Source: a virus. Taken from it: DNA of 24,063 bases. The position numbers were made by a program, and so were the translations under genes. The stretch spans positions 1 through 24,063 of the IMG/VR virus record IMGVR_UViG_3300007074_000111; one strand, given 5' to 3'. Within the stretch, counting starts at the first letter, position 1. Each line of letters begins with the position of its first letter. The notes beneath the pieces were generated by a model, which saw only the letters and a list, made by a program, of their open reading frames with translations, was not told the origin of the DNA and made no database searches. Positions 3,339 through 23,425 of the stretch are shown here, piece by piece.

Positions 3339-4055
3339 ATGGCAACGTACACCGCTGGCAATCAAATTAACCGTGCATTGCGATTGCTGGGCGTACTTGC
3401 AGAAGGTGAAACACCCTCAGCAGATATGTCAAATGACGCTTTAATGGCGCTCAACCAAATGATCGACTCGTGGAACACCGAGCGGTTATCAGTTTTTAGC
3501 ACAAAGGATCAAGTATTCACATGGCCTGCTGGTGAGATTACCCGAACCCTTGGGCCTACTGGCGATTTCGTAGGAATACGGCCTGTGCTAGTTGATGACG
3601 CGACGTATTTTATTGTACCTGGCACTGGTGTGTCGTATGGTATTAGCCTCATCAATGACCAGCAGTACAACGCTATTGCGCTTAAAACCTCCACTTCGAC
3701 CGTTCCGCAATTGTGTTTTGTGAACATGGAGTACCCTAACATTTCGATGTCGGTTTACCCAAAGCCAACGCAGGACTTGGAATGGCACATTGTGTCTGTT
3801 GCACCGTTAACCGAGGCTGCGACTTTGGCAACAGTGATGGCGTTTCCGACAGGCTATCTTCGCGCGTTCACGTATAGTTTGGCTATGGAAATTGCGCCAG
3901 AGTTTGGCGTTGAACCAAGTTTTCAAGTGTCGCGTATCGCCATGACAAGCAAGCGAAACATAAACCGCATTAACAACGACAACGACATTATGTCAATGCC
4001 TACTGACGTTGTGTCCAATCGCCGTGGGTTTAACATTTACATTGGCAATTACTAA
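3339..4055 (+). CDS. Head-to-tail adaptor, P22 tail accessory factor gp4-like
   Basis: The 238-residue product is probably the adaptor that binds under the portal and helps seal packaged DNA. The N-terminal helix pair (QINRALRLLGVLAEGETPSA, then DALMALNQMIDSWNTERL) is the typical opening of the gp4-like adaptor family. The middle is beta-rich and the C-terminus (SKRNINRINNDNDIMSMP) carries the conserved tail. It is longer than P22 gp4 (166) but similar to many relatives in environmental podoviruses. A GGAG lies before the ATG. Its TAA shares one base with the ATG of the gp10-like gene (TAATG), indicating coupled translation. Confidence 0.85.
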   Translation: MATYTAGNQINRALRLLGVLAEGETPSADMSNDALMALNQMIDSWNTERLSVFSTKDQVFTWPAGEITRTLGPTGDFVGIRPVLVDDATYFIVPGTGVSYGISLINDQQYNAIALKTSTSTVPQLCFVNMEYPNISMSVYPKPTQDLEWHIVSVAPLTEAATLATVMAFPTGYLRAFTYSLAMEIAPEFGVEPSFQVSRIAMTSKRNINRINNDNDIMSMPTDVVSNRRGFNIYIGNY

Positions 4056-5710
4056 TGAAGACGCCAATCCTTGGGTCGTCCTATGTAGCGCGTAGTGTTA
4101 ACGCTGCTGACGCCCGAATGGTTAACCTTTTTCCGGAAGTTGTCCTTGAGGGGGGTAAAGAACCGGGATTTTTAAACCGCGCTCCCGGATTGCGCCTTGT
4201 CGCAAACATGGGGGATGGTCCTATTCGCGGCATGTGGCAATTCAACGGGTTTGGATATGTTGCGTCGGGTGAGGTGTTGTACCGTGTTGATAGTTTATGG
4301 AACGTGTTTCCAATTGGTACTATTTCTGGGTCATCTGGTCCAGTCAGCATGTCTGATAACGGCACACAACTGTTTGTGGCGTGCAACGGCCCCAGTTTCA
4401 TCTACAACAGTTTAACTTTAGAGTTTAAGCAAATTGACGATCCTGATTTCCCCGGTGCTGTTACCGTGGGTTATTTAGATGGTTACTTTGTATTTAACGA
4501 ACCCAACAGTCAACGCCTGTGGATCACTAGCCTGTTTGATGGTACATCCATAGACCCACTTGATTTTGCAAGCGCTGAGGGTTCCCCTGATGGGCTTGTG
4601 TCGGTTTTAATAGACCATCGAGAAGCGTGGTTGTTTGGTACCAACTCGGTTGAGGTTTGGTACAACTCAGGAGCAGCCGCTTTTCCGCTGACACCCGTTC
4701 AAGGTGCGTTCAACGAGGTGGGGTGTGTTGCATCTTTTTCAGTTGCCAAGTTAGATAACGGTATTTTTTGGCTAGGTGCGGATGCCCGTGGTAAGGGTAT
4801 TGTGTACCGCGCTAATGGCTACAGCGCACAGCGGATTTCAACTCACGCTGTTGAATGGCAGATTCAGCAATACGCTGACATGAGTGATGCAATTGCTTAC
4901 ACATACCAACAAGACGGCCACTCGTTTTACGTTCTAATTTTTCCTTCAGCAAACACCACATGGGTTTACGATGTGGCTACGTCACTGTGGCATGAGCGTG
5001 CTGCGTTTATCAACGGCTCGTTCACTCGTCATCGCTCAAACTGTCAAATGGCGTTTAACGGCGAAATTGCTGTGGGTGACCATGAACTAGGTAACATCTA
5101 CGTTTTTGATCTAGACGTGTATTCGGACAACGGCGATGTGCAAAAGTGGTTGCGGTCGTGGCGAGCGCTGCCTACCGGCGCAAACGATCTTAACCGTAGC
5201 GCGCACCATTCGTTGCAACTTGACGCAGAAACTGGTGCAATTGACTCAAGTGTACAAACGCCGGTTGTTATCCGAGATATTTCTGAACTTGACCAAAAAC
5301 TGCTTACCGAAAGCGATGACGTTTTGGCTTGGGAAGAACCCGACCCGGACAACAATGAAGTGCTGTTGACTGAAGCTGGCGACGATTTAGTTCAAGAAGA
5401 CGGCGGCAAAATCGTTCTTGTAACAAACACTAAAGTTGGTGGCGCGTTGCTTATTGAAAAAGGCTTGCCAGAAGCGTTTGCGATTGACCCGCAAGTTATG
5501 CTGCGTTGGTCTGACGACGGCGGTCACACTTGGAGCAACGAACACTGGCGGTCGATGGGTAAGACGGGCGCGTATGGCACCCGAGTTATTTGGCGCAGGC
5601 TGGGCATGACGCTAAAGTTGCGCGACCGTGTGTACGAAGTTTCAGGCACGGACAACGTAAAAATTGCAATCATGGGTGCTGAGTTAAAAGCGAGCGCCAC
5701 AAATGGCTGA
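4055..5710 (+). CDS. Packaged-DNA stabilisation protein, P22 gp10-like
   Basis: The 551-residue product is probably the second tail accessory factor, forming the hub below the gp4-like adaptor. The N-terminal KTPILGSSYVARSVNAADA and VNLFPEV signature, the APGLRL element and the repeated beta-propeller-like strands match the P22 gp10 family. The C-terminal block (about 465-551: VMLRWSDDGGHTWSNEHW, then GTRVIWRRLGM) is also typical. P22 gp10 has 472 residues. The excess includes an acidic insertion near 413-460 with two LLTE-containing copies (416-428 and 437-449). It overlaps the genes on both sides. Confidence 0.9.
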   Translation: MKTPILGSSYVARSVNAADARMVNLFPEVVLEGGKEPGFLNRAPGLRLVANMGDGPIRGMWQFNGFGYVASGEVLYRVDSLWNVFPIGTISGSSGPVSMSDNGTQLFVACNGPSFIYNSLTLEFKQIDDPDFPGAVTVGYLDGYFVFNEPNSQRLWITSLFDGTSIDPLDFASAEGSPDGLVSVLIDHREAWLFGTNSVEVWYNSGAAAFPLTPVQGAFNEVGCVASFSVAKLDNGIFWLGADARGKGIVYRANGYSAQRISTHAVEWQIQQYADMSDAIAYTYQQDGHSFYVLIFPSANTTWVYDVATSLWHERAAFINGSFTRHRSNCQMAFNGEIAVGDHELGNIYVFDLDVYSDNGDVQKWLRSWRALPTGANDLNRSAHHSLQLDAETGAIDSSVQTPVVIRDISELDQKLLTESDDVLAWEEPDPDNNEVLLTEAGDDLVQEDGGKIVLVTNTKVGGALLIEKGLPEAFAIDPQVMLRWSDDGGHTWSNEHWRSMGKTGAYGTRVIWRRLGMTLKLRDRVYEVSGTDNVKIAIMGAELKASATNG

Positions 5711-6407
5711 CCAAAACATAACCAAAATTCCGGCACCCCGAGTACCGGTTTTAGACCAACGGACGGGTTTGATTTCGCGGGAGTGGTTTCGTTTTTTTAA
5801 CAATATTTACGTCATTACGGGCGGCGAAACTCAGGGTGTTATTCAGATTGATAGCGGCGGCACCGGCGCGTCTACGGCTGCGCAAGCACGCGCCAACTTA
5901 GGCGCGGGTACGGGTAACGGCAGCGTAACCGAAGTACAAGGTACAGGAAACGTTAACGGTATTACGTTAACAGGCAACGTTACAACGGCTGGTTCTTTAA
6001 CGCTAGGCGGGACGCTATCTGATGTTGATCTCGCCACTCAAACCACGGGCAATCTTGACGTTTCCACCCGAGTGTCAGGCGTATTGCCAACTGCCAACGG
6101 CGGCACAGGTGTCGCAGCGGTGACAATTGAGACAAAAACCGCCGATTTCACTATCGCCGACACTGAACGGTGGTTGATTAACGACAAGACCGGATCGTCT
6201 TGCGTGGTCACACTACCCGACGCTACGCTGTGGGGTGGTCGCCAGTTGAGTTTTAAAAACCTGCAAGCGCAGACTGTCGTGTCAGATTCAAGCAATGTTG
6301 CACCTATTGGCAGCGCCACACTTGGTACTGCGATTCTCCCTGCAACTGTAGGCGCGTGGGCAACATTGGTGTCAGATGGTACAGACTGGGTGGTGATGGC
6401 ATCATGA
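5703..6407 (+). CDS. Tail-fibre-like structural protein
   Basis: The 234-residue product is probably a short fibre or fibre-attachment protein. Residues 10-40 (PAPRVPVLDQRTGLISREWF, then RFFNN) are a frequent N-terminal motif of phage proteins near the tail hub. Residues 51-67 (SGGTGASTAAQARANLG) and a second NGGTG near 133 are classic fibre-shaft elements. The C-terminal part (about 140-234) is beta-rich and ends in a capping module (GAWATLVSDGTDWVVMAS). It starts inside the end of the gp10-like gene (8-nt overlap) and ends in an ATGA overlap with the next gene. It carries no recognisable receptor-binding domain, so host range may depend on another protein. Confidence 0.8.
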   Translation: MADQNITKIPAPRVPVLDQRTGLISREWFRFFNNIYVITGGETQGVIQIDSGGTGASTAAQARANLGAGTGNGSVTEVQGTGNVNGITLTGNVTTAGSLTLGGTLSDVDLATQTTGNLDVSTRVSGVLPTANGGTGVAAVTIETKTADFTIADTERWLINDKTGSSCVVTLPDATLWGGRQLSFKNLQAQTVVSDSSNVAPIGSATLGTAILPATVGAWATLVSDGTDWVVMAS

Positions 6408-7237
6408 TTACAGTGACTTACGGTAAAGGGTTTGGGCTGTCAACGGCTGATAAAGTTAACGCGTTGCAAAATGAATTGCTAAAAATGCCACAAGCTGACA
6501 TTATTACGACGCACACGTTTCTTCCTAGCGTCTATGAGCGATCAATTACTATTCCAGCATGGACTGTGCTGACTGGTGCGGAGCATAAAACACCGTATAA
6601 GGTGCGTTTGGAAAAAGGCACAATTGCAGTAAATACCGACAATGGTGTTAAGGTGTTGACCGCACCTTGTGAGTTTGACGCAAGTGCTGGTGTACAGCGT
6701 GCGGGTCGAGTGTTTGACGAGTCTGTTGTGTGGGTTGATGTTTACGACAACCCTGACAACTGTACCGACTTGTCTGTCCTAGAAGACCGACTTTACGTTG
6801 TACCAAGTTGTGGCTTGGCTGCCAGCCGAACCAGCAGCCAGGCTGCAAAAATTGACTACGGGTTGTTTTTACATCAATTGGGTACAACAGACACAGAGTT
6901 GTCAAAAGTTGTTAAAATTGAGTCAGATTTAATTGACATGCCTGCTGAATGGGCAGTTGAAATGCGCCAGTCGGACATACACGGTATTGGTTTGTTTGCT
7001 ACTAAAGAGTTTGATGCGGGTGATGTTGTTTGCCCCGGAAGGCTTAATGGCAAGCGTACACCGGGTGGAAGATTTATAAATCATTCCCAGAACAATAACA
7101 TTTACCCTAACCTGGTGGGAGATGACATTTTTGCAATTGCTGCGTGTAAAATCAACACGGGCGATGAATTGTTAGTGGACTACAGAGCGTCAATGAGAGT
7201 CAATTTTGGCATCACGATGCAAGGGGAACTATTATGA
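6404..7237 (+). CDS. Cupin-like plus SET-domain fusion protein (putative lysine methyltransferase)
   Basis: The start at 6404 makes an ATGA overlap with the fibre gene; a longer version from 6356 has no support. Residues 36-130 resemble phage cupin-like domains (SITIPAWTVLTGAEHK, a GTIAV strand, an APCEF turn, a VVWVDVYD strand). Residues 185-262 form a compact SET domain with GIGLFAT (194-200), RFINHSQNNN (223-232) and GDELLVDY (253-260). These hold the N-H-S cofactor motif and the usual catalytic Tyr (Y260). SET proteins transfer methyl groups from S-adenosylmethionine to lysine. SET-I and post-SET cysteines are absent. The gene ends in an ATGA overlap with the ejection-protein gene, so the product may act on, or be part of, the virion. 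Substrate unknown. Confidence 0.8.
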   Translation: MITVTYGKGFGLSTADKVNALQNELLKMPQADIITTHTFLPSVYERSITIPAWTVLTGAEHKTPYKVRLEKGTIAVNTDNGVKVLTAPCEFDASAGVQRAGRVFDESVVWVDVYDNPDNCTDLSVLEDRLYVVPSCGLAASRTSSQAAKIDYGLFLHQLGTTDTELSKVVKIESDLIDMPAEWAVEMRQSDIHGIGLFATKEFDAGDVVCPGRLNGKRTPGGRFINHSQNNNIYPNLVGDDIFAIAACKINTGDELLVDYRASMRVNFGITMQGELL

Positions 7238-8655
7238 GCGGATGGGTAGCAGGTGCAATTGTTGGTGGGGCGGTAATCATGGGTAAAACTGCTAAAAGTG
7301 CCGCAGCCACTCAAGCCGGTGCCGCTGTGCAGGCGGGTGAAACTTCACTTGAAGGTTTAGCTTTGCAAATTGCAGCCGACAAAGAGTCGGTTGATAAACA
7401 AATTGCTGCTCAGAAAGAAGCGCTTGCTCAAACTCTTGCTGCTCAAAATATAGCAAACATGGCAGGTGAGCAAGCAAACACTGTCGCGTTAGACAAACAA
7501 CTAGCCGCGCAACAAGCAGCCCTTGACCAGACGCTGGCGTTTCAACGCGAGATTTACAACAAGCAGGTTGAAAACCTATCATCGTTTACAGAAGCTGGCG
7601 AAGCTGGTCAGTCTAGGTTAATGGACTTGCTGGGTTTAAGCGAGAACACCGAAGCTCCGGGGTTTGGTTCAGCCGCAACCGCGTTTAACGTTGAGGGGTT
7701 TGACCCCGGCACTTTGTTTGAGAATTTTAATACTCAGCAAATGGAGATAGACCCTGGTTACGCGTTCCGTTTATCAGAAGGCCAGAAAGCCATTGACAGG
7801 TCTGCCGCCGCTCGTGGTGGTTTGCAGTCAGGTGCTGCTCTTAAAGCTGCTGCTGAGTATGGTCAAAACATGGGTTCGCAGGAATACCAAAACGCATATA
7901 ACCGCTTTCAAGCCAGTAAAGCGTCTAACTCTCAAGAGTACGGTAACGCATTTAATCGTTTTCAAACCGAGCGTGCCAACAGATTAGCACCGCTACAGTC
8001 GCTGCAAGGCATTGGTCAAGCGTCTGCCGCAGGGCAAGCCACAGCCGCTGGCAATTTGGCGTCAGGCTCGTCACAAGCAATTCAAAACTTTGGGTCTGGC
8101 TCAAGTGCTGCTTATCGTAACTACGGTGCCAATGCGTCAAACCTTGCGTCATCTTTAGGTAACAACCAGTCGGCTGCATACAGCGATTACGGTGCTGGTG
8201 TGTCAAACATATACGGCAACTCAAGTGCAGCGCGTCAAAGCGCCTATGCTACAAACACAGCCAATCAGATGAACGCAATTACCGGCGCGGCCAACGCAAC
8301 AGCAGCAGGTCAAATTGGAGTTGGTAACGCGTTTACCAATGCCGTAGGTCAAGGTGTTAATTTTTACGGTCAGTATCAGCAAAACCAATTGATGAATAAA
8401 TATCTGAACCAAGGCGGCTCACAAATGCCATTGCTGGTCGGGTCAGATATAACAATTAAAGAAGACATCCGTAAAATTGGTGTGCTTGACAATGGTTTAA
8501 ATTTGTACAAGTTTCAATACAAACCCTTTTATAAAGACGCGTGGGGTCATGGTGAACAAATTGGGGTTATGGCTCAAGAAGTTGAGAAGGTCATCCCTGG
8601 CGCTGTTTGTGAACACCCTGACGGATACAAGCTCGTGAACTACGCGATGATTTAA
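7234..8655 (+). CDS. Ejection (DNA-transfer) protein with C-terminal S74-type chaperone domain
   Basis: The 473-residue product is probably an internal virion protein released into the host during DNA entry, comparable to P22 gp7. The N-terminus is a Gly/Ala hydrophobic segment followed by a long Ala/Gln coiled coil (about 35-115). Residues 175-250 hold the PGYAFRLSEGQKAIDRSAAA block of this class, then two copies of SQEYxNAxNRFQ (215-226 and 233-244). A Gly/Ser/Ala/Tyr repeat follows (about 270-360). Residues 404-473 resemble the S74 intramolecular chaperone: SDITIKEDI with Ser404 and Lys409 in dyad spacing, then GVMAQEVEKVIPGAV and a final VNYAMI. The domain is short (70 residues), so self-cleavage is uncertain. 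Confidence 0.82.
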   Translation: MSGWVAGAIVGGAVIMGKTAKSAAATQAGAAVQAGETSLEGLALQIAADKESVDKQIAAQKEALAQTLAAQNIANMAGEQANTVALDKQLAAQQAALDQTLAFQREIYNKQVENLSSFTEAGEAGQSRLMDLLGLSENTEAPGFGSAATAFNVEGFDPGTLFENFNTQQMEIDPGYAFRLSEGQKAIDRSAAARGGLQSGAALKAAAEYGQNMGSQEYQNAYNRFQASKASNSQEYGNAFNRFQTERANRLAPLQSLQGIGQASAAGQATAAGNLASGSSQAIQNFGSGSSAAYRNYGANASNLASSLGNNQSAAYSDYGAGVSNIYGNSSAARQSAYATNTANQMNAITGAANATAAGQIGVGNAFTNAVGQGVNFYGQYQQNQLMNKYLNQGGSQMPLLVGSDITIKEDIRKIGVLDNGLNLYKFQYKPFYKDAWGHGEQIGVMAQEVEKVIPGAVCEHPDGYKLVNYAMI

Positions 8656-20801: not shown

Positions 20802-20841
20802 TTGACACAAGTGTAGCACAGTTCTGATACACTGTGACACA
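20802..20841. promoter_or_regulatory. Divergent promoter and operator-like inverted repeat
   Basis: AGTGTAGCA (20810-20818) and TGATACACT (20825-20833) are inverse copies at 8 of 9 positions, 6 nt apart. Each half reads as an extended -10 box (TGnTACACT) on one strand. On the minus strand GTCACA (20833-20838) stands exactly 17 nt from its -10, and the start would fall about 20 nt before the regulator gene. On the plus strand TTGACA (20802-20807) is 20 nt from the -10, longer than ideal. TGACACA also recurs at 20803 and 20835. Confidence 0.6.
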
Positions 20842-20859
20842 CGGCAACAAATTATTTAC

Positions 20860-20890
20860 AAAAAAATACCTCGGTTGTTACGCCGAGGTA
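20860..20890 (-). terminator. Hairpin reading as a minus-strand intrinsic terminator
   Basis: TACCTCGG (20867-20874) and CCGAGGTA (20883-20890) form a perfect 8-bp stem with an 8-nt loop. On the minus strand it is followed by seven T residues, a standard intrinsic terminator. It would stop antisense transcription from the primase gene before the regulator operon. On the plus strand the same hairpin ends two bases before the Shine-Dalgarno of the leader ORF. Confidence 0.65.
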
Positions 20891-20906
20891 CTAAAGGAGA
20901 AAATCA

Positions 20907-20951
20907 ATGAATCAACTGGCACTTGCATATACCAGCGATATTATTGTATGA
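20907..20951 (+). CDS. 14-codon leader ORF coupled to the primase gene
   Basis: AAAGGAG at 20894-20899 stands 7 nt before an ATG that opens a 14-codon frame encoding MNQLALAYTSDIIV. Its TGA overlaps the ATG of the primase gene (ATGA at 20948-20951). The primase start itself has no Shine-Dalgarno, so ribosomes probably reach it by terminating on this leader. It could be a leader peptide controlling primase translation, or the primase N-terminus separated by a frameshift. The ATGA form, repeated across this genome, favours coupling. Confidence 0.6.
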   Translation: MNQLALAYTSDIIV

Positions 20952-23425
20952 CATCGTTGCAATCTGTACAACAGCACCCTGCGTCAGTAGACGCGTACAT
21001 CAGACACGGATGGTCGCTTGTACCTATTCCACCTAACACCAAGGGTCCACGCACCACTGGCTGGAACAAACAAGAAAACGCGCTCAAGTCCATGGGCGAC
21101 TTGCCAGCAGGTTACGGCATTGGCCTGGCTCATGCTTACAGCGGCACCATGGCTTTTGACATAGACGAGTGGGGCACCACTTCGATGCTGCTGGGGCTGC
21201 AAGGGATTGATCTGCAAGCCCTTTACGATGCGCCAGACGCAGTGGTTATCGACAGCGGCAAGTCCGGTCACGGTAAGCTGCTGTACTCAATGCCTGTGGG
21301 TCTGTCACTGCCGTCTAAAAAGATTATGGCTGGTGGTGTCACAGCTTACGAGTTGCGCTGCGCCACGGCCAACGGGTTAACGGTGCAAGACGTTATGCCG
21401 CCATCCATCCACCCAGAAACACGTCAAGCATACCGGTGGGCTGGCAAAGGTCATTGGATGCGTCTGCCACCTATTCCACAAGCGTTGTTGGATGTGTGGC
21501 AGAAGATGCTTTCCCAAGAGCAGACACGATCAATCAACACGGGCGAACATGTCAATTCATCATGGGGTGAAATTCGGTCTGCGCTTGAGTCAGTAACCCC
21601 CAACTGCCCACGGGAGGAATGGATTAACTGCGGCATGGCGTTGCATTGGGCTGGCACGCAGACTGGTCAGTTGGACGATGCGTTGCATTTGTGGAACGAG
21701 TGGAGTCGTCCAAGCGACAAGTACCCCGGCGACAGGGCAGTAATGAGTCAGTGGCTTTCATTTAAGAGCGACAAAGATACGGCTGTCAAACTGGGCACGT
21801 TGTTCCATCTTGCACGTAAGGCAGGATGGTCACGGCCCATGCCTGATGCGGCCAGTTTGTTTTCATCTGTTACAGCGACTGCTACTGCGCCCACCACTAT
21901 TGTTAAAGGGTTGCGCCCTGTGCCGCCCAACATGGACATGGATGTGTGGCCATCAGTGCTTGCAACCCGTGCCCAAGAGGTTAGTGAAAGCGTGGGCTGC
22001 GACCCTTTGGTCCCACTGTTCGCAGGTCTTAGCGCTATCTGCGGCGTAATCGATGCGCAAACCCGTCTTGAGTTAATGCCGGGATACCAAGTACCACCTG
22101 TTTTGTGGTTGATGACCCTTGGCGCACCAGCCGATAAGAAGACACCAGGTAGTAAGCCAATGCTCTCACCTTTAAAGTTTTTAGAGGCTGAGGATAGGCC
22201 ACGTTTTGGCAAAGAGATGCTTGACTGGGAGGGCAAGGAGGCAGCATTCGCGTCTGCCAAAAAATCTTTTTTAGAGTTCTCGGCCAGTCCTGAAGCTATG
22301 CTATCGGGCGACCAAGCACCATCAGTGCCCGACATGCCAGACCAGCCAGTGGCACTCAAAATCACAGTTAACGACATCACCAGTCAGAAGCTGGTTCGTG
22401 AAGCATCATCACGGCCACGCGGTCTGTTGTGCCACCTTGATGAAATGAACTCGTGGATTAAAAAGCTCACCGATAAGTCCAGTGGCGAAGACCGTTCGGC
22501 GTGGGTGGTGAGTTACGAATCAGACTCTTACATAATGGACCGAGTGGGGGCTGGTTCAATTTTTTGTGAAAACTTGGCCATATCCATATACGGCAATATA
22601 CAGCCACGGGTGTTCAGAGACAACATGGCAGCTTTATCAGCCGATGGTCTGCTCCAACGATTCATACCAGCAATTTTGCGCGATGATAAGACACGCCTTG
22701 GCAACCCAGTGCCTGAGTATCTGACAACCGCTGCGGCGTGGGAAAACACGCTGCGCATGGTCTACGCAGTACCCGCTCAGACATACAAACTGTCCCCAGA
22801 AGCATATGTAGTTTTTCGAGAGTTTCAATCGTGGTATGAAGACGCCAAGCATGATGAACGTTTGCTGCACAGCGGTGATACGTTTATGACAGCGTTCGGT
22901 AAGCTAGAAGGCACCGCTGGCCGACTGATACTACTGTTCCATGTGACTGACTCGCCATTTACAACCTTGGTGCCAGCCGATGTGGTTCATAGGGTAATAC
23001 GATTTGTCAAGTCTTATTTGATACCTGCCTATCGGTACGCGTTTAATGAGGTGAGCGGCACCAGTAATTTCGACCAGTGGGTGACTGATTACATCATCCA
23101 TTACTGCGACCATGACCATATCACCATGTCCGAGATTAAGAGGGGCGCACGCAGGCAGATTGATGGCATCAGTCCGTGGCAAGCCGATCAGATGGTGCTT
23201 GGTGCTATGCAGATGTTAGAGGTGTCTGGATGGGTGATGCGCATGGACGATGGCACTAGAGAGACACAGCACTTTGCGCAGTGGGCTATTAACCCGTCAC
23301 TCGTAACTCAGTTTAAAGATTACCGTGAGCGTGTGATTAAAGCCAAGCAACGCCAGCTTGACGACATTTACAAGTTGTCTACAAAAGAAAAGCCCCGTGT
23401 CTATGGGGCTGATAACTACGAGTGA
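20948..23425 (+). CDS. Primase-helicase: prim-pol, PriCT-2 and DUF3987 domains
   Basis: The 825-residue product probably primes and unwinds DNA for the family B polymerase. Residues 15-185 are an archaeo-eukaryotic primase (prim-pol) domain: GWSLVPIPPNTKGP (21-34), catalytic FDID (70-73), SGKSGHGK (103-110) and PPSIHPETRQAYRW (151-164). Residues 207-294 match PriCT-2 (EIRSALESVTPNCPREEWIN, then a DALHLWNEWS helix). Residues about 330-680 match DUF3987, with a P-loop-like GAPADKKTPGSKP (392-404) and CHLDEM as a Walker B-like strand. I chose the ATG at 20948; the frame continues upstream to a GTG at 20834 without ribosome site or domain support. Confidence 0.9.
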   Translation: MTSLQSVQQHPASVDAYIRHGWSLVPIPPNTKGPRTTGWNKQENALKSMGDLPAGYGIGLAHAYSGTMAFDIDEWGTTSMLLGLQGIDLQALYDAPDAVVIDSGKSGHGKLLYSMPVGLSLPSKKIMAGGVTAYELRCATANGLTVQDVMPPSIHPETRQAYRWAGKGHWMRLPPIPQALLDVWQKMLSQEQTRSINTGEHVNSSWGEIRSALESVTPNCPREEWINCGMALHWAGTQTGQLDDALHLWNEWSRPSDKYPGDRAVMSQWLSFKSDKDTAVKLGTLFHLARKAGWSRPMPDAASLFSSVTATATAPTTIVKGLRPVPPNMDMDVWPSVLATRAQEVSESVGCDPLVPLFAGLSAICGVIDAQTRLELMPGYQVPPVLWLMTLGAPADKKTPGSKPMLSPLKFLEAEDRPRFGKEMLDWEGKEAAFASAKKSFLEFSASPEAMLSGDQAPSVPDMPDQPVALKITVNDITSQKLVREASSRPRGLLCHLDEMNSWIKKLTDKSSGEDRSAWVVSYESDSYIMDRVGAGSIFCENLAISIYGNIQPRVFRDNMAALSADGLLQRFIPAILRDDKTRLGNPVPEYLTTAAAWENTLRMVYAVPAQTYKLSPEAYVVFREFQSWYEDAKHDERLLHSGDTFMTAFGKLEGTAGRLILLFHVTDSPFTTLVPADVVHRVIRFVKSYLIPAYRYAFNEVSGTSNFDQWVTDYIIHYCDHDHITMSEIKRGARRQIDGISPWQADQMVLGAMQMLEVSGWVMRMDDGTRETQHFAQWAINPSLVTQFKDYRERVIKAKQRQLDDIYKLSTKEKPRVYGADNYE
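23385..23410 (-). terminator. Intrinsic terminator of the right-hand minus-strand genes
   Basis: AGCCCC (23391-23396) and GGGGCT (23405-23410) form a 6-bp GC-rich stem with an 8-nt loop. On the minus strand it is followed by TTTTCTTTTGT, a U-rich tract. It lies just past the end of the 57-residue gene, inside the last codons of the primase gene. Confidence 0.65.

Follow-up and report, generated by a model that had tools for sequence, protein, structure and literature searches.

Does a phage tail operon encode a protein-lysine methyltransferase, and what would such an enzyme modify? The question is raised by one gene of a 24,063-base virus record (IMG/VR IMGVR_UViG_3300007074_000111), analysed over its whole length and hereafter called the window, which an initial annotation had read as a cupin-SET fusion made together with virion parts.

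Genomic setting

The gene order in the window is coat, adaptor, gp10/Hc3, fibre, cupin-SET and ejection-like gene (Table 1), a tail-operon setting that the initial annotation had proposed and that profile and synteny evidence backs. The short overlaps that it had described with the fibre gene upstream and the ejection-protein gene downstream are ATGA at both junctions of the cupin-SET open reading frame (ORF), the fibre-like ORF ending at 6407 and the downstream ORF starting at 7234. An alternative upstream GTG start at 6356 would yield 293 amino acids; the ATG at 6404 is favoured because close relatives start at the equivalent ATG.

Table 1. Positions of the cupin-SET gene, its domains and its neighbours in the window.
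Feature	Position	Strand	Remarks
gp10/Hc3 head-closure (phage stabilisation) protein	4055..5710	+	anchor of conserved gene order
Upstream fibre-like gene	5703..6407	+	weak PHROGs tail fiber matches; 4-nt overlap
Cupin-SET fusion gene	6404..7237	+	277 aa, ATG start
Cupin (RmlC-like) domain, ~residues 31-133	6494..6802	+	phrog_12032 / phrog_24280 tail-module family and fold
Helical linker, residues 134-178	6803..6937	+	DSSP helices 144-159 and 163-170
Compact SET domain, residues 179-265	6938..7198	+	GxG 194-196, RFINHS 223-228, E255, Y260
Downstream DNA-ejection-like gene, C-terminal Peptidase_S74 chaperone domain	7234..8655	+	4-nt overlap

The Peptidase_S74 (endosialidase chaperone) domain that ends the ejection-like protein (E = 5.3e-10) is commoner in tail spikes and fibres, and the DNA-ejection label of this gene may need review. 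The fibre gene is variable, several relatives matching its two ends only. Elsewhere in the window, positions 20834-23425 encode a primase-helicase-like protein with Prim-Pol, PriCT_2 and DUF3987.

The SET domain and its predicted fold

Pfam SET (PF00856) was the sole Pfam domain of the window protein (E = 4.6e-8, 33.9 bits with a cut-off of 22.4) and was found in 84 of 88 homologues. The family profile matched MLL1 at 2.4e-10 and the vSET protein of PBCV-1 (1n3j) at E = 4.5e-6. The hallmarks read earlier from the letters (GIGLFAT, RFINHS, GDELLVDY) are all present, and in an 88-row alignment of diverse copies we determined strong conservation of the GxG SAM-binding motif (G194 87/88, G196 88/88), of the (R)FxNHS motif (R223 87/88, N226 88/88, H227 87/88) and of ELxxDY with the catalytic tyrosine (E255 and Y260, both 88/88). 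Thus N226, H227 and Y260, on which the initial annotation had staked its reading, are kept in the relatives; a set of 65 sequences, filtered at 85% identity, shows no change at N226 or Y260 and keeps H227 in 64 of its members. In addition, R218, T219 and G222 are invariant or nearly so. The Nei-Gojobori dN/dS ratio between close pairs was 0.05-0.06 for the cupin, 0.07-0.09 for the linker and 0.10-0.12 for the SET part, the last value indicating that selection keeps this part as a protein.

An AlphaFold2 model built with 88 sequences had a mean pLDDT of 88.9, with 95-98 in blocks over residues 171-260; given a pTM of 0.56, the mutual placement of the two domains in it is not trustworthy. The predicted SET domain superimposed on MLL1 (7u5v_A; Z 10.7, rmsd 1.6 Å, 78 residues aligned, 40% identity) and the predicted cupin, a double-stranded beta-helix fold, on 4e2g_A (Z 11.7, 91 residues aligned). 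Foldseek concurred on both folds, and a search of a viral structure library returned phage cupins and one phage protein labelled 'SET domain containing'. The cupin plus SET architecture is hence backed by profile and structure evidence alike, the model agreeing with known SET folds. A chance motif match is ruled out by the conservation in 88 diverse homologues, a dN/dS of about 0.1 and the fold.

Two points go beyond the initial annotation: the SET domain is compact and without SET-I, and it is an accessory module. As regards the first, the phage domain has the fold and the catalytic motifs in common with MLL1/KMT2A and with bacterial chromosomal SET proteins, but the distance from GxG to NHS (G194 to N226, measured on the alignment) is exactly 33 residues in 88 of 88 copies, whereas it is 67 residues in MLL1, as counted from the profile alignment, and likewise 67 in the three bacterial SET proteins in which GxG could be located. 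The stretch missing from the shorter span is, on established knowledge of SET domains, presumably the SET-I insert. SET-I forms part of the substrate groove in other SET enzymes; it is usual and variable and not strictly defining for SET methyltransferases. When 200 genomes of the same order as the Burkholderiales metagenome-assembled genome (MAG) G001 were searched, the compact profile was matched end to end solely by a phage-like copy in G001, and nearly all other matches spanned just its C-terminal half. The compact domain may be one of the smallest SET enzymes, and it could reveal what SET-I is needed for.

The cupin and its tail-module family

The N-terminal part of the window protein matched the PHROGs families 'short tail fiber' (1.7e-21) and 'tail fiber adhesin' (2.1e-18), the whole protein matched phrog_34170 (unknown function), and the tail-module cupin profile phrog_12032/phrog_24280 was matched by 88 of 88 members; in VvAW1 the cupin family is PHA00672. 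None of the Pfam cupin models was reached by the N-terminal part, and a profile search for a solved structure of a tail cupin gave best matches of E = 0.07 or worse. By inspection, no conserved HxH of the canonical cupin metal-binding motif HxH...E...H was apparent, columns 61, 65 and 67 being variable. The order Hc3, fibre, cupin, ejection gene is kept in the SET-less phages X14, VvAW1 and BA3, and the fused cupin-SET of Rhodoferax phage P26218 occupies the equivalent position. The cupins annotated as short tail fiber or tail fiber adhesin (VvAW1 gp04, X14 gp38, BPP-1 bbp23) have the same N-terminal domain and place in the genome as the window protein, but they stop soon after the cupin, without SET.

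From these data we infer that the cupin is a small tail or assembly protein, annotation and gene order pointing to a location in the virion. Alternatively, the enzyme could act late on host proteins (surface, ribosomal or defence), the cupin being an oligomerisation or targeting domain and not a virion part. Cupins are often enzymes or scaffolds, and the virion location of this family is here taken from annotation alone; we nevertheless consider such a role improbable in view of the constant place of the cupin in the tail module of diverse podoviruses, whether or not SET is attached.

Distribution and repeated gain or loss of SET

The cupin-SET fusion is a gene family of freshwater phages. Rhodoferax phage P26218, Pseudoalteromonas phage PH1, zth2-2 and Manatee Spring podovirus genomes encode the same fusion (28-30% identity). 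Hundreds of viral contigs carry it as well: IMG/VR yielded more than 540 related stretches in each of two alignment scans, the second figure being a lower bound, and 168 in a scan with the protein alone. A SET domain of the compact kind is present in 8 of 50,697 annotated phage records, the eight representing five distinct phages by genome, and is always fused to a cupin. Six loci from MAGs (L150-L155), on contigs of at most about 35 kb, were treated as probable phage sequence that had been grouped into bacterial bins.

Databases already contain the same fusion protein, or one very much like it, under phrog_34170, A0A6J5PTS6 (automatic label 'SET domain containing protein') and UOF81456.1 (automatic label 'pbcV-1 histone H3-lys 27 methyltransferase structure'), and for these three entries we found no description of the architecture or its function. 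Our literature search, in a collection with a minority of the subscription journals, returned no paper joining SET with a phage tail fibre. The SET and cupin folds themselves are known, and some entries carry a SET label.

Among 338 loci, 254 had the SET fused, 80 had the cupin alone and four were interrupted by the contig end; as both kinds of query were used to find the loci and some contigs were retrieved repeatedly, these counts do not reflect natural frequencies. SET lies within the cupin ORF in all 254 fused loci. A separate overlapping or split SET gene was also considered and rejected, no separate SET ORF being present in the 338 loci. The identity of SET-less cupins to fused ones reaches 98, 94, 93 and 93%; the SET-less genes of L073, L074 and L077-L080 are nearly identical to fused ones. 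The cupin tree of 128 rows requires nine gains or losses, at least six of them forced by well-supported branches, a count that is rough given few alignment columns and long branches. Short SET-like remnants at the C terminus of two SET-less cupins (L073, 5040-5582; L074, 4518-5009) suggest that SET was lost there by deletion. On the sequences compared, SET is therefore an accessory module on a tail-module cupin, repeatedly gained or lost.

A neighbour lost together with SET would be a candidate substrate. None was seen: between SET-minus and SET-plus partners the flanking genes are recognisable and in place, with identities of 68-87% for gp10, 56-90% for the ejection-like gene and 40-69% for the fibre (where both have it). 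Since the flanking genes persist when SET is absent, no neighbour is singled out as the substrate.

The missing SET-I and a domain that is dispensable in nature would both suit a SET fold that merely ends the tail protein as a non-catalytic binding or structural module. We regard this as very unlikely, because a purely structural role would not need the residues of the SAM motif and the catalytic tyrosine, which are essentially invariant at about 25-30% identity.

Proposed function

The catalytic residues persist in nearly all relatives, and protein methylation by these phages during virion assembly or infection is therefore probable. The reading that we favour, with a confidence just short of even, is a compact SET protein-lysine methyltransferase that its cupin holds on the tail and that modifies virion proteins while particles are being assembled. 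Its catalysis, its substrate and its presence in the particle are what we infer. Late in infection the enzyme would bind SAM inside the infected cell and methylate lysines on proteins brought close by the cupin, the likeliest substrates during assembly being cupin-SET itself, the fibre or the ejection protein; virion proteins are favoured since the enzyme is encoded in a structural operon, tail-linked and tethered. With SET-I, a part of the substrate groove elsewhere, missing, tethering by the cupin, and not a long peptide groove, would confer specificity. The same absence counts against the favoured reading, as the groove may be incomplete. The benefit could be conditional, for example stability or charge of surface lysines or resistance to host proteases, and this would fit a module that selection maintains although it is frequently lost. 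More tentatively, we propose that these are phage-specific minimal SET enzymes lacking SET-I, which owe their specificity to the tail cupin that they are fused with and methylate the proteins of the virion in situ.

Methyl transfer requires SAM, a cytoplasmic compound. Action would thus be possible late in infection, at assembly, or after delivery to a new host, and hardly on the cell surface. Delivery has a precedent in vSET (A612L) of PBCV-1, which is packaged in the virion and methylates host H3K27 (PMC7019647). Like the phage domain, vSET is viral and small, and it is a profile relative. It is, in contrast, a free 119-aa protein of an algal virus that acts on histone H3, whereas the phage SET is a core of about 87 residues fused to a tail-module cupin, and the likely bacterial host of the window phage is without nucleosomes. 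As has been suggested for vSET, the phage enzyme might ride on the particle, enter the host at ejection and methylate host proteins at the start of infection, and the gene downstream of it is indeed ejection-like. Nevertheless, annotation places the cupin family on the outside of the tail and not among the ejected parts, there is no known ejection signal, and an enzyme of early host control would have no need of fusion to a tail protein; we therefore hold delivery to be unlikely.

Should methylation of virion proteins during assembly prove true, bacteriophage morphogenesis would include a step of protein-lysine methylation, and lysine methylation, best known from histones, would have a part in how common aquatic phages are assembled or enter their hosts. 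What the methylation does could be tested in natural pairs of phages, one having SET and the other lacking it.

A separate observation concerns Bordetella phage BPP-1, for whose Bbp23 a literature search returned unrelated uses of the string only. In its genome (L086, 5483-6402, bbp24-bbp23) the gene immediately before the cupin gene encodes a GNAT acetyltransferase, so that here, too, an enzyme that may modify proteins adjoins a tail cupin.
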